Position numbers and translations under genes: made by a program
Part shown: piece by piece, positions 1,415 through 40,175 of the stretch
Layout of the letters: each line of letters opens with the position of its first letter
How positions within the stretch are numbered: position 1 is the stretch's first letter
From: Rodentibacter trehalosifermentans
GTDB lineage: Bacteria; Pseudomonadota; Gammaproteobacteria; Enterobacterales; Pasteurellaceae
Length of the DNA: 54,107 nucleotides
Direction of reading: 5' to 3'
NCBI RefSeq assembly: GCF_002000545.1
Contig: NZ_MLHL01000056.1
Coordinates: 1-54,107 of the forward strand
The notes under the pieces: model-generated
Database searches by the model: none
Told to the model about the DNA's origin: nothing
The model's input: only the letters and a program-made list of their open reading frames with translations

Positions 1415-3064
1415 TTATTTAAAAATGACTGCATCTTTAGGATCATATTTCGATGCATCAAGTGGGGCTTTTTGTGAATGTTTCCAAATATATTTGGCTA
1501 AAACTTCCGCATCAATAAAACCGGTATTTAAGAAAGTCGGATTCGTTGTTACCACCGGATAACCATCGCCTCCTGCGGCGTTATAGCTTGGCATAGAAAC
1601 ACGATAGGTTTTATTAAGATCTAATGGCTTACCTTGAATTTTCACCTCTTCAACTTTTTTGGCTTCTTTATTCACGACCATCGTAATACCGGAATATTGT
1701 GCATAAGCACCGGAATCCACTTCTTTTAGTGCCACCACGTTCAAATAATCAATCAACGCTTTGCCGGTTAAATCCACATAGCTCACAATATTACCAAATG
1801 GATGAACCTTAAGAATATCACGGTAGGTCACTTTGCCCGGTTGGATAGAATCCCGAATGCCTCCGGAATTCATAATGCCAATATCTGCCCCGGCACGTTC
1901 ACGTTGCGCCTCAGCAATGAGATGACCGAGATTGGTTTGTTGGAAACGAATAATATTACGATCGCCTTCTAACTTACCTTTTAATTCGCCTAACTCCCGA
2001 CCTAATAATTCATCGCCTTTATTTTGATAGACTTTTAACAAACCTTCCATTTCCGGATCTTGTGGGATTTCTTCACCGTAAGTGACATATTCGGTTTTGC
2101 CGTCTTCTTTTGTCACTTTTTTCTTCAAGTTCACAGGGATTAACTCATAATGGCGTAGTGTTAATTCACCATTTTTAAATTCAAAATCCGCACGTCCCAC
2201 ATATTTTCCCCACTCGTAAGCCTGCATGATCCAAGTGCCGTTTTGGAAATCCGGTTTACAAGGTTGGGTCGGTTTATAATCTTTGATCCACACGCCTTTT
2301 TCATCAACACATACCGGATCGTGGCTGTGTCCGCCAACAATCATATCAAATGCCCCTTTATCGAGATTACGGGCAAGAGAAACATCTCCCGGTGCATTGG
2401 AGCCATACTGTGCATCATAATAGTAGCCCATATGGGTTAAGGCAATTTTTACATCCGGTTTTTCCTGTTCGTTTAGGGCTTTCAATGTTTCTCTTGCCAA
2501 TTCTGTTGGATCTTTAAAAAGCACATTGCCCGTATATTCCGGGTTGCCTAATTTGGCTGTATCTTCCGTAGTTAATCCAACGACAGCAATTTTTAAGCCT
2601 TGTTTGTCTAAAACAATGTAAGGTTTAACCAGTGGTTGATTGGTTTTTTTATTAAATACGTTGGCAGATAAGAAAGGAAATTTAGCCCAAGACTCTTGCA
2701 TCGCAAGCATTTGTAAGGGGTTATCAAATTCGTGGTTACCTAATACCGTTGCTTCATAGCCCATTGCATTCATCGCTTGGATATCCGGTTCGGCATTTTG
2801 CATATCCGATTCCGGTACTCCGGTATTAAAATCCCCTGCATTTAATAAAATTACCGAGCCGCCTTTCTTCTCCACTTCGGCTTTTACTCGATTAATAATC
2901 GTTTTTTGTGCTGGGAAACCATACTCGCCTTTGCTATTTGGCCAGAAGTGTCCGTGGGTATCATTAGTGTGAAGCACAGTGAAGTGATAGGTTTTATCTT
3001 GCTCATATGCCATCGCCGTAGAAGTTGCAAGAACTAAAGGCAAAAAAGTAAATAATCTTTTCAT
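1415..3064 (-). CDS. ushA: periplasmic 5'-nucleotidase / UDP-sugar hydrolase
   Basis: Hydrolyses extracellular nucleotides and UDP-sugars so that nucleosides can be imported. The 549-residue protein starts with a signal peptide (cleavage probably after STAMA, about residue 19). The metallophosphoesterase motifs follow in order: [32 protein letters not shown] and GGHSHDP, which hold the two metals. The C-terminal substrate domain contains [10 protein letters not shown] and NAAGGDGYP. Length and sequence match E. coli UshA closely. The related Haemophilus NAD nucleotidase NadN belongs to the same superfamily and is the main alternative, but the YEQDKTY start and [10 protein letters not shown] segment favour UshA. 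It is the first gene of a probable ushA-pheA unit. Confidence 0.9.
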
Positions 3065-3109
3065 AAAAAACTCATCCTAAATTGACCGCTCTTTTCAAAG
3101 CAAAACAAT

Positions 3110-3142
3110 AAAAAAGCTATACTTCTTTGCAGAAATATAGCT
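3110..3142 (-). terminator. intrinsic terminator after lpxC
   Basis: On the minus strand AGCTATA and TATAGCT form a stem extended by TTTCT/AAGAA, followed by TTTTTTATT. It lies just past the lpxC stop, so it ends the dcw transcript before ushA. Confidence 0.85.
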
Positions 3143-3160
3143 CTTTCAATAAAAAAACCA

Positions 3161-4078
3161 TTAAATTAATACTTGAGTAGGAACAACATAGCCTTGTGGA
3201 ACTTGTTCTTTATCTTCAAAAGTCACAAACTCCCAGGCTTCTTGATTTGCAAGTACTGCACGCAATAACTTGTTATTTAATCCATGACCGGATTTATAAG
3301 CTTTAAAATCACCAATAATGTTATAACCAGCCATATAAAGATCACCGATGGCATCTAACATTTTATGACGAACCAATTCATCTTTAAAGCGTAAACCTTC
3401 TTCGTTCAAAATGCGGTAGTCATCTAACACAATAGCATTATCCAAACTACCACCTAATGCTAAACCTTGTGATTGAAGATATTCAATATCTTTCATAAAA
3501 CCAAAAGTTCTTGCTCGACTAATTTGGTGAACAAAGGCTTGGGTAGAAAAATCCATCATATAGTTACGCACGTTTTTACCAATCGCAGGATGTTCAAAAT
3601 CAATGGTAAAATCTAATCGGAAACCGTTATAAGGTTTAAATTCCGCCCACTTATCACCCTCCTCTACCCGTACTTTTTGCTTGATACGAATAAATTTTTT
3701 CGGTGCGTTTTGTTCTTCAATACCGGCATCTAAGAGCAAGTAAATGAATGGGCTGGCACTACCGTCCATGATCGGAATTTCAGGTGCATCCACTTCAATA
3801 ATAATATTATCAATACCAAGCCCTGCTAATGCAGCATTTAAATGCTCAACAGTGGAAACCCGTACGCCTTGTTCATTAATAAGGGCGGTACAAAGCATCG
3901 TGTCACGCACTGATTCCGCATTTGCCGGAAAAGTGACCGGCGGATTTAAGTCCGTACGGCAATAGATCACACCAGTATTCGGCATCGCAGGACGTAAAGT
4001 TAAAGTTACTTTTTTACCACTATGCAAGCCTACGCCTGTCACCTTAATGCTTTGTTTTAATGTTCTTTGTTTAACCAT
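3161..4078 (-). CDS. lpxC: UDP-3-O-acyl-N-acetylglucosamine deacetylase
   Basis: Zn-dependent enzyme for the committed step of lipid A synthesis. It removes the acetyl group from UDP-3-O-acyl-GlcNAc in the cytoplasm. The 305-residue protein has the family's standard length. The zinc ligands are visible in VEHLNAAL (about His79) and in [16 protein letters not shown] (His and Asp about residues 238-242), and a further catalytic His lies in [11 protein letters not shown]. It is the last gene of the dcw cluster, 38 bases after ftsZ, the usual position in gammaproteobacteria, and an intrinsic terminator follows. In E. coli LpxC level is set by FtsH proteolysis; no transcriptional control is visible here. 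Confidence 0.97.
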
Positions 4079-32685: not shown

Positions 32686-32844
32686 CATGGATTTCTTCAT
32701 CTTAAAATTTTGGGCTATTATAGCGGAAAAGAGCGGTCACAAAAAACAACGTTTTTTGAATGTTGGCTTGCCAAGGAGTCAAATAGAAGCGAACAAACGA
32801 GTAAGCAAGTTTGTGAATAATTTTAGCGATATTAAGGAAACAAA

Positions 32845-38204: not shown

Positions 38205-38714
38205 TCAATTATCCTTCATCAATACCAATCTCTCTTTACATCTTCGGCATAAATATTCTACTCCCTCTTTTAAAACTCGATGATGGCGGCGGAGGCTTAG
38301 AAGATGGGTTTGGCAGGCACAACGATATTCAAAAGTTTTTCCCTGAACATTTTTCACATCAAATTGGTGGCAAGTATCTGCCGGTAAATGAAAAACCCTA
38401 TTCATCACAGCCTGCCATTCTTTTCCATGGGGTTTAACCCGTCCGAATACTTGATACACAATGAGATGTGCCAATTCATGAGGCACCACTTGGTGAATAA
38501 ACTCGTGCGTATTTTCAATCAATAAAGTGCGGTTAAATTTGATTTCATTTTTTTGCAAATACGCCACTCCGGCTTTTACCCCCCGCAAATCATAATGGAC
38601 CGTCGGCATAGGAAAATCACGTTTAAAATACTGTTCCGCAAGACGCAAAGATCCCGCAAGTTTGCGCTGAACCTGCATTTTTAAATGACGAAATTGAGTC
38701 TGTGATGAAAACAT
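38205..38714 (-). CDS. sprT: SprT-like zinc metalloprotease domain protein
   Basis: SprT family member, related to the metalloprotease domain of Spartan. The 169-residue protein has [13 protein letters not shown], a HExxH zinc site, near residue 78, and [12 protein letters not shown] after it. A C-terminal zinc ribbon uses [13 protein letters not shown] and [10 protein letters not shown]. Length matches E. coli SprT (165). In E. coli the gene is next to metK-region genes, and here metK is also the next gene. The molecular role is not settled in bacteria. Confidence 0.92.
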
Positions 38715-38720
38715 AATATT

Positions 38721-38753
38721 AAGAAAAACAAAAAACCGCTAAAGCGCGGTTTT
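38721..38753 (-). terminator. intrinsic terminator in metK-sprT gap
   Basis: AAAACCGC and GCGGTTTT form an 8-base stem. On the minus strand TTTTTGTTTTTC follows. It lies only 7 bases before sprT, so it insulates sprT from minus-strand transcripts starting further right. Confidence 0.85.
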
Positions 38754-38866
38754 ATATGGTAATATATCCAGCGGTTGGTCAGGTTCGTTATTGCCTGACT
38801 GGCGGGTCAGACAGTAACTTAATCTCGATCAGCTTTGTTTAACAATTCTGAAAGGAGATGATGCTT

Positions 38867-38935
38867 ATGATAAAAATCTTACTTATGATATTTATCAGTT
38901 TAGCGTTGCTGTCTCACAGCTCCCCAGCTTGGTAG
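38867..38935 (+). CDS. 22-residue hydrophobic peptide, candidate type I toxin
   Basis: The ORF starts ATG at 38867 and stops TAG at 38933-38935. The peptide begins MIKILLMIF, continues as a hydrophobic helix of about 15 residues, and ends SSPAW. AAAGGAG (38851-38857) lies 9 bases upstream, a near-ideal ribosome site. In-frame ATGs at 38858 and 38861 are too close to it. Length, a single short helix and a polar/aromatic tail resemble Ibs-type membrane toxins. The upstream region 38771-38816 has two overlapping hairpins (GTCAGG/CCTGAC, CTGAC/GTCAG). I do not see a convincing plus-strand promoter. A leader or regulatory peptide is the alternative. Confidence 0.55.
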   Translation: MIKILLMIFISLALLSHSSPAW

Positions 38936-39020
38936 CAACCTAAACACCAACTAAGACAATAGCGCTATGCGCTATTGTCTTCCCAATATAATCACTTCCC
39001 TACAAAATTTCAAGCTTAGA

Positions 39021-40175
39021 TTATTTCACCCCGGCCGCTACGCGTAATTCCTCTGCGCGGTCGGTTTTTTCCCATGGGAATTGCTCACGGCCGAAATGGC
39101 CATAAGTCGCTGTTTCACGATAAATCGGTTTAATCAAATCAAGCATCTTAATTAAACCATAGGGGCGTAAATCAAAGAATTCACGCACTAATGCCACCAA
39201 CAATTCATTGGCCACTTTACCCGTACCAAAGGTTTCCACCATAATGGAAGTGGGTTCTGCTACGCCAATGGCATAAGAAAGTTGAATTTCACAGCGATCT
39301 GCTAAACCGGCAGCCACGATATTTTTCGCCACATAACGTGCGGCATAAGCGGCTGAACGGTCCACTTTTGACGGGTCTTTACCGGAAAATGCCCCACCAC
39401 CATGGCGTGCTGCGCCACCATAAGTATCCACAATGATTTTACGACCGGTTAGCCCACAATCGCCCATTGGCCCGCCAATTACAAAACGCCCCGTTGGGTT
39501 GATGAAAAATTTGGTGTCTTTTGCAAGCCATTCACTTGGCAATACCGGTTTGATGATTTCTTCCATCACCCCTTCGTGAAGATCTTTTTGATTAATTTCT
39601 TCTGAATGTTGAGTAGAAAGCACCACCGCATCCACACCGACAATTTTGTTATTTTCGTATTTTAGCGTTACCTGGCTTTTCGCATCGGGACGCAACCAAG
39701 CTAATTTACCGCTTTTACGCACTTCTGCTTGTTTTTGCATGAGGCGATGCGCATAAGTAATGGCGGCAGGCATGAATACCTCTGTTTCATTGGTGGCATA
39801 ACCGAACATAATCCCTTGGTCGCCCGCCCCTTGATCTAAAGGATTTTCACGATCCACGCCTTGATTAATATCTGCAGACTGCTTACCAATGGCATTTAAC
39901 ACAGCACAAGAATGGCCGTCAAAGCCCATATCGGAATGTTCATAACCAATATCACAAATGACTTTGCGGGTGAGATTTTCGATATCCACCCACGCCGATG
40001 TGGTGATTTCACCGCCCACTAATGCCATACCGGTTTTCACATAGGTTTCACAGGCTACACGGGCTTTGGGATCTTGTTTTAAAATTTCATCAAGTACCGC
40101 ATCAGAAATCTGATCGGCAATTTTATCCGGATGTCCTTCAGACACGGATTCCGAGGTAAATAAATAACTAGACAT
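39021..40175 (-). CDS. metK: S-adenosylmethionine synthetase
   Basis: Makes S-adenosylmethionine from methionine and ATP. The 384-residue protein begins [25 protein letters not shown], with the catalytic His near residue 14. It contains [13 protein letters not shown] (ATP/phosphate site), [24 protein letters not shown] and [16 protein letters not shown] near 260. Length matches E. coli (384). The promoter upstream carries three tandem met boxes, so MetJ repression by SAM is expected. Confidence 0.98.

Follow-up and report, generated by a model that had tools for sequence, protein, structure and literature searches.

A probable type I toxin–antitoxin module in the metK–sprT gap of Rodentibacter trehalosifermentans, with relatives on Pasteurellaceae chromosomes and plasmids

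Features of the metK–sprT gap

In the window (the whole stretch of 54,107 nucleotides of R. trehalosifermentans DNA analysed here), metK (39021–40175) and sprT (38205–38714), both on the minus strand, flank a gap of 306 bases in which a first-pass annotation had described a toxin–antitoxin-like locus. Sequence reading and a motif scan found this locus where it had been placed. A 22-codon hydrophobic open reading frame (ORF), MIKILLMIFISLALLSHSSPAW, lies on the plus strand at 38867–38935 behind the Shine–Dalgarno sequence AAAGGAG (38851–38857), and an in-frame ATG at 38858 would extend it to 25 residues. On the minus strand, a TTGAAA-17-TATATT promoter runs from 39013 to 38985 and an intrinsic terminator occupies 38721–38753 (38753–38732 plus the T tail). 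Together these predict an antisense RNA of ~255 nt (38724–38978), close to the ~260 nt first proposed, that contains the entire ORF. This RNA had also been said to open with a 13-base hairpin: the 13-pair hairpin is there (38981–38953), but the description of the start is only approximate because the predicted first nucleotide (~38978) falls ~3 nt inside the first arm. The same hairpin would form the 3′ end of the toxin mRNA and the 5′ end of the antisense RNA; it is kept among relatives while its sequence varies. No convincing plus-strand promoter had been recognized, a point that we revise: an extended −10 element, TGgTAATAT, lies at 38757–38765, just beyond the antisense terminator, and predicts a toxin mRNA start at ~38772.

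Isolated motifs do not stand out from chance in this region. Between 37000 and 40500 we counted three promoter-like sites, where shuffles average 9.4, and four terminator-like sites, where they average 3.7. Folding, by comparison with shuffles, exceeds chance on both strands (z = −7.24 for the plus-strand RNA and −6.64 for the minus-strand RNA). The case for a module rests above all on conservation, with folding in addition, and not on single motifs. On these grounds the gap probably holds a self-poisoning module, a 22-residue membrane peptide under a predicted antisense RNA. Elsewhere in the window, at 32731–32827 on the plus strand, Rfam family RF02902 (AaHKsRNA22, an Aggregatibacter small RNA) matched above its cut-off with 45.8 bits.

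Distribution in chromosomes and plasmids

The element also occupies the metK–sprT gap of Haemophilus aegyptius, H. influenzae and H. haemolyticus, and one Haemophilus genome carries a tandem pair there. Actinobacillus copies lie at another site, next to a gene that by eye looks like gloA. The genome of the window itself holds two further copies, in tandem and 416 bases apart on contig C104; of this pair (C104:12103–12718; 2570–3300 of the fetched locus L037), one encodes an MPTWLRW... peptide, whereas the in-frame ORF of the other starts at a later ATG and has just 16 codons. A covariance model built on the leader of 19 of 26 distinct copies, with the window included, matched 24 of 140 Pasteurellaceae genomes (the window's own among them) in 10 of 43 genera; the window, as one of the 19 model sequences, scores 107.4 bits. 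Nine of 394 genomes matched in an order-wide leader search, five of them Pasteurellaceae (own genome included), and the four matches outside this family were short, with E values of 0.002–0.01, and were taken as chance. Many weak matches from the search with the gap span the terminator hairpin only and were left unused.

Plasmids carry the element as well. When queried with the window, Blast matched 9 plasmid records, and with the copy on pJR2 it matched 13 of 72,556, the latter from Pasteurella (4), Glaesserella (3), Actinobacillus (2) and, with one record each, Frederiksenia, Avibacterium, Aggregatibacter and Mannheimia. Four of the 13 matches cover only ~40% of the pJR2 query and represent sub-type B2, described below. 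Resistance genes are predicted (PLSDB) on three of the records fetched, pJR2, pB1006 and pCCK3259. The window had no match in 50,697 phage records, the leader pattern no exact match in viral contigs and the pJR2 copy no match in the E. coli genomes. A terminally redundant, plasmid-like contig of 3,319 bases (LBCX01000302.1) with a Rep-like ORF and the module belongs to an assembly labelled Bacteroidales bacterium Barb4, by contamination or transfer.

Close relatives of the window's genome lack the element. It is absent from the metK site in all 14 congeners, and the leader model found nothing anywhere in these genomes. In 11 of them the metK–sprT gap, measured from sprT motif offsets, is ~55–58 bases long and contains a short terminator, two have another insert (~140–145 bases) and one has no sprT motif within 400 bases. 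A short hairpin resembling the antisense terminator could be seen by eye after metK in congeners too. In two congeners (L152 and L155) this site holds, again by eye, an insert other than the element, ~90 bases long and with inverted ends, which indicates that insertion here has happened repeatedly. One congener without the element has a metK 98.7% identical to that of the window. Judged from these comparisons, the element is an accessory insertion at the metK terminator. It may reflect old inheritance with many losses or an ancient transfer; metK (84.3–84.9% identity between the window and three Haemophilus loci) and the element (81–85%, four Haemophilus loci) are about equally diverged, so these data decide neither its age nor its donor.

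Conservation of promoters and ORF

For comparison we aligned 26 distinct copies, the window's included, which were chosen by motif among the loci then collected; the structure alignment contains 25 of them and leaves out one copy (L023) with a large deletion. The plus-strand promoter, TGn(T/C)AnnnT, stands directly 5′ of the leader in 24 of the 26 copies, including that of the window. The best antisense promoter match reaches at least 10 of 12 positions in 18 copies, compared with 44 of 1,040 mono-shuffled stretches. Seven more copies score 9 of 12, a value that means little by itself because 342 of the 1,040 shuffles reach 9 or more; in L023, one of these seven, and in L011 (8 of 12) the best match lies at another position.

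Hairpins persisting in relatives without the ORF had been named beforehand as the pattern that would speak against a toxin, and the relatives do not follow it: 21 of the 25 aligned rows keep an intact Ibs-like ORF of 21–22 codons and two keep an intact ORF for a different peptide. One of the other two rows has the 16-codon ORF from a later ATG and the other a premature stop. Across four ORF pairs, which overlap and share sequences, differences at codon positions 1, 2 and 3 sum to 18, 5 and 37. Under random change, the ORF would remain open without loss of hydrophobicity with probabilities of 0.14, 0.06, 0.04 and 0.01 for the four pairs, the constraint being non-significant for the window against Haemophilus alone (P = 0.14).

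Alternative pairings in the toxin mRNA

The full-length structure of the toxin mRNA is paired in 93.4% of cells over the 25 rows, against 25.2–48.6% for slid versions, a comparison that favours the structure because it was derived from the same sequences. Changes on both sides of a pair occur in 64 cells (mean of 20.8 in shuffles, with 0 of 500 reaching 64) and in 11 pairs (shuffled 6.9, 4 of 500 as high); the number of further pair types was not raised over shuffles (495 of 500 as high). The leader hairpin (38787–38818, loop TGGCGG) is paired in 97.7% of cells, with both-side changes in 4 of its 12 pairs, and its complement folds alike in the predicted antisense RNA. Another hairpin combines the 3′ half of the ORF with bases past the stop codon (38898–38945); in one of its helices 98.0% of cells are paired, and both partners have changed in 3 of the 4 pairs. 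The hairpin that would hide the Shine–Dalgarno sequence (38822–38859) forms in the full-length fold of the window and is weaker than the other helices, being 84.0% and 85.8% paired across rows and having no both-side change in its outer helix.

The 5′ element of the mRNA (GGTTGGTCAGGT, 38773–38784) has two alternative partners, and both pairings are conserved. In the outermost helix of 7 bp, 5′ GG(U/C)UGGU pairs with ACC(A/G)(A/G)C(U/C) just before the 3′ hairpin (98.9% of cells paired); the partner in the window is ACCAACT (38946–38952), one pair alternates between UA (13 rows) and CG (12 rows), and the helix is formed in the window's own fold. RNAalifold prefers instead a pairing of 12 bp with AUCUCGAUCAGYU in the leader, which in the window corresponds to ATCTCGATCAGCT (38822–38834), the strand that faces the Shine–Dalgarno sequence in the full-length fold. 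This leader pairing is present in 99.7% of cells. As 8 of its 12 pairs are invariant, 16 of 500 shuffles score at least as high. It contains G–U in 100 of 300 cells (counted from the pairing table), which would be A–C mismatches on the opposite strand; the constraint thus acts on the toxin mRNA.

Loci representing three peptide sub-types were searched for the two partners, and 12 of 13 were evaluated, one (L012) being dropped because the motif was not found. On the leader side, the expected partner gave the best duplex at 10 of the 12 loci (all except L084 and L024) even though its sequence differs, sub-type B3 having for example ATCTTACCGATC and AATTTGACTAATC. On the 3′ side, the expected partner did so at 9 of the 12; the exceptions are L136, L160 and the window itself, whose best downstream duplex is not the one with ACCAACT. 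In L024 the 3′ partner is misaligned in the 25-row alignment and was read by hand.

Minimum-energy folds at full length contain all seven end pairs in 14 of 25 rows and the 12-bp leader pairing instead in five (four plasmid copies and one C104 copy). After shortening of the 3′ end, a leader pairing of at least nine pairs appears in 22 of 25 RNAs, the window being among the three exceptions. A hok-like switch predicts that removal of the 3′ end opens the ribosome site, and when computed this was not uniformly borne out: accessibility of the Shine–Dalgarno sequence showed no consistent shift, with a gain exceeding 0.3 in four rows out of 25 and a loss of 0.14–0.17 in four Haemophilus rows. Folding therefore singles out neither pairing as the ‘on’ state.

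Peptide sub-types

One RNA frame is found with at least three peptides. Sub-type B1, the window type, ends in SSPAW or similar; B2, with MPTWLKWVLLIVIILLLSGDTVQGIS and variants, occurs in the first C104 copy, in five other genomes and on four plasmids; B3, with MKLFRLFLILVIVLLLTADTPIAR and variants and with GTG or TTG starts, occurs in five genomes (the L136 peptide was read by eye). On C104 a B2 copy and a B1-type copy stand side by side. Most B2 and all B3 loci lie outside the 26-copy alignment because copies were picked by motif among the loci collected earlier.

We are somewhat inclined to group these loci into a type I superfamily of the Pasteurellaceae, whose single conserved, bistable RNA frame serves at least three interchangeable peptides (...SSPAW; MPTWLKW...SGDTVQGIS; MKLFRLF...TADTPIAR), joins an Ibs-like layout to end-pairing of the hok kind and travels between chromosomes and small plasmids. 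On the same slightly favoured reading, the shared frame would consist of the extended −10 element, a 5′ GGYUGGUC element with two partners, the leader hairpin, a 3′ ACCAACC and a fully overlapping antisense RNA.

Proposed function and alternatives

Our preferred explanation, to which we give a probability of roughly 0.8, is a type I toxin–antitoxin module that has entered the metK terminator as an accessory insertion. At the level of sequence, the gap encodes a small hydrophobic peptide, which has a promoter and a ribosome site to itself, and a complementary antisense RNA that likewise has a separate promoter and terminator. The type I designation of the first-pass annotation is well supported by the comparison among relatives, and its ‘Ibs/Sib-like’ holds for the layout; membership in Ibs/Sib does not follow, the window having no Pfam or SIB_RNA match at E 10. 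Counting against the preferred explanation, the 3′ hairpin of the mRNA has no clean U tract on the plus strand.

We propose that the plus-strand promoter would yield a short mRNA for the 22-residue membrane peptide, and this peptide would presumably damage the inner membrane. Transcription from the promoter on the other strand would yield the antisense RNA of ~255 nt over the whole mRNA, and pairing of the two would block translation and probably be followed by RNase III cleavage. A second safeguard may lie in the full-length mRNA itself, where 5′ GGUUGGU would pair with 3′ ACCAACU and the leader stretch AUCUCGAUCAG would mask the Shine–Dalgarno sequence; without its 3′ partner, the 5′ element GGUUGGUCAGGU could pair with AUCUCGAUCAG instead. 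An mRNA that escaped the antisense RNA would then stay inactive through end-pairing and the masked ribosome site, until processing, or loss of the antisense RNA, allowed the peptide to be made and the membrane to be damaged. By analogy with hok, such a switch would set the timing of toxin translation, and plasmid copies would gain a role in maintenance. The antisense block is suggested by layout and conservation and the end-pairing hold by covariation, while release of the peptide, and activity as a whole, are expected by analogy with IbsC and Hok. That the locus is expressed, toxic and repressed, and that the switch would open the ribosome site instead of closing it, are points that we infer; an excess of antisense RNA would be an inference from promoter consensus.

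Other explanations account for parts of these observations. A non-coding antisense or 3′-UTR regulatory RNA of metK–sprT, in which the ORF is incidental, would fit the metK–sprT orientation of the antisense promoter and terminator and the strong hairpins. We consider it very improbable, since the element is absent from this site in every one of the 14 congeners, it occurs with its ORF on plasmids and at another Actinobacillus site, and the G–U asymmetry puts the conserved leader pairing on the strand opposite metK. Carriage by small plasmids might suggest an RNAI-like copy-number control RNA that strayed into chromosomes, and RNAI does match the antisense strand of three loci below threshold (22.2–23.0 bits, gathering score 47). 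Such an origin is scarcely credible given that the element is carried by pJR2 and pGD2107-2, for which a replication protein is annotated, and by a conjugative plasmid that has parA, and that chromosomal copies retain an open hydrophobic ORF.

The patchy presence of the element, its tandem copies, its insertion at a terminator and its decayed copies (L018 and L023) would be in keeping with a functionless MITE-like repeat that spreads through terminators. Promoters, ORF and compensatory pairing are conserved across genera, which makes a functionless repeat highly unlikely. On these points we rejected metK 3′-UTR regulation, copy-number control and a functionless repeat alike, and retain the type I module as the best explanation.

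If this explanation is correct, the 13 plasmid records would give a maintenance hypothesis for small Pasteurellaceae plasmids, and the end-pairing would be a further natural case, beside hok, of toxin timing by the ends of an mRNA. Among the matches listed in the literature searched, there was no account of such type I modules in Haemophilus, Pasteurella or Actinobacillus; an earlier description is possible.

Canonical Ibs/Sib-like loci in Pasteurellaceae

Canonical Ibs/Sib-like loci are present in Pasteurellaceae alongside the module. RF00113 (SIB_RNA) matched at E ≤ 1e-3 in 43 of 140 genomes, counted from the match table, with a best score of 55.6 bits against a cut-off of 56 and none above it; annotation by cut-off therefore misses canonical loci and the new modules alike. 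Matches per genome reached 8 (G011) and 11 (G087), many of them weak, and at the loosest settings weak matches also appeared in control genomes other than E. coli. An Ibs-like ORF is present in all of the best 20 canonical loci, which were fetched (L057–L076). The window's own genome holds a likely canonical locus at C80:11173–11324, which scores 31.4 bits to RF00113 and encodes the peptide MNIRLFIILIILLLVSSNAY, a match to PF13956 (Ibs_toxin) with 20.6 bits (cut-off 27).

In canonical ibs loci, unlike the module, it is the Shine–Dalgarno region that matches the predicted mRNA 3′ end by complementarity, in 18 of the 20 Pasteurellaceae loci and 4 of 4 E. coli loci (from L088 and L089), counts that carry no chance control. 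This suggests another end-pairing arrangement. In five of the canonical loci (L064, L070, L071, L074 and L075) the Sib-type promoter, by eye, overlaps the start of a small MAL... ORF, perhaps a prophage regulator.

Comparison with known systems

Ibs/Sib and hok serve as precedents for the module (PMC4147584, PMC8309996). According to the review PMC4147584, Sib overlaps the whole ibs ORF and its ribosome site and acts by means of two recognition domains, and 3′ cleavage allows hok mRNA to refold.

The module could be a true but divergent member of Ibs/Sib (E. coli ibsA–E/sibA–E; RF00113, PF13956) whose long leader is a local elaboration, a possibility that we take seriously with the odds against it. 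It shares the overlap geometry, with a predicted antisense RNA over the whole ORF and ribosome site, a tiny hydrophobic peptide whose end is alike (SSPAY and SSPAW), and repeated chromosomal copies, as in the C104 pair and the Haemophilus tandem pair (G059). SIB_RNA gave six full-length sub-threshold matches (22.2–26.6 bits, E 0.31–3.7, gathering score 56) on the antisense strand of five of 13 loci from Haemophilus and Actinobacillus, which recurred in a genome-wide search, and a profile of the canonical Ibs ORF region gave relatives scores of up to 18.7 bits, the highest of 1,040 shuffled decoys reaching 10.2. The window, with 3.8 bits, falls inside the decoy range of that profile. Its peptide, in both the 22- and the 25-residue form, matched 0 Pfam families at E 10, whereas two canonical-type peptides of the family match PF13956 with 20.6 and 16.8 bits (cut-off 27). 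SIB_RNA found nothing at the window (E 10) or at modules in six further sources (E 3), and only 14.6 bits (E 4) at the C104 copy. Short hydrophobic peptides may also converge. A remote common origin with Ibs/Sib is possible. The module differs further from Ibs/Sib in its peptide of 21–22 residues ending in SSPAW, its antisense RNA of ~255 nt compared with ~140, its long switch-like leader and its plasmid copies.

With hok/Sok of plasmid R1 the module shares plasmid carriage and a toxin mRNA whose 5′ end is complementary to its 3′ end and has an alternative partner, the end-pairing being indicated here by covariation and by folding, complete in the 14 minimum-energy folds given above. It differs in that its antisense RNA spans the whole mRNA, whereas that of hok/Sok covers the leader only. 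The window peptide, which has no Pfam match, is not of the Hok type. A coupled, overlapping frame like mok was considered and rejected, because leader frames are not conserved: by eye they differ between relatives, and no conserved upstream ORF was seen. ZorO–OrzO and TisB–IstR1 combine a short hydrophobic toxin with a structured leader and a hidden ribosome site, as the module does; their antitoxin RNA genes stand apart from the toxin ORF, whereas that of the module lies directly opposite.
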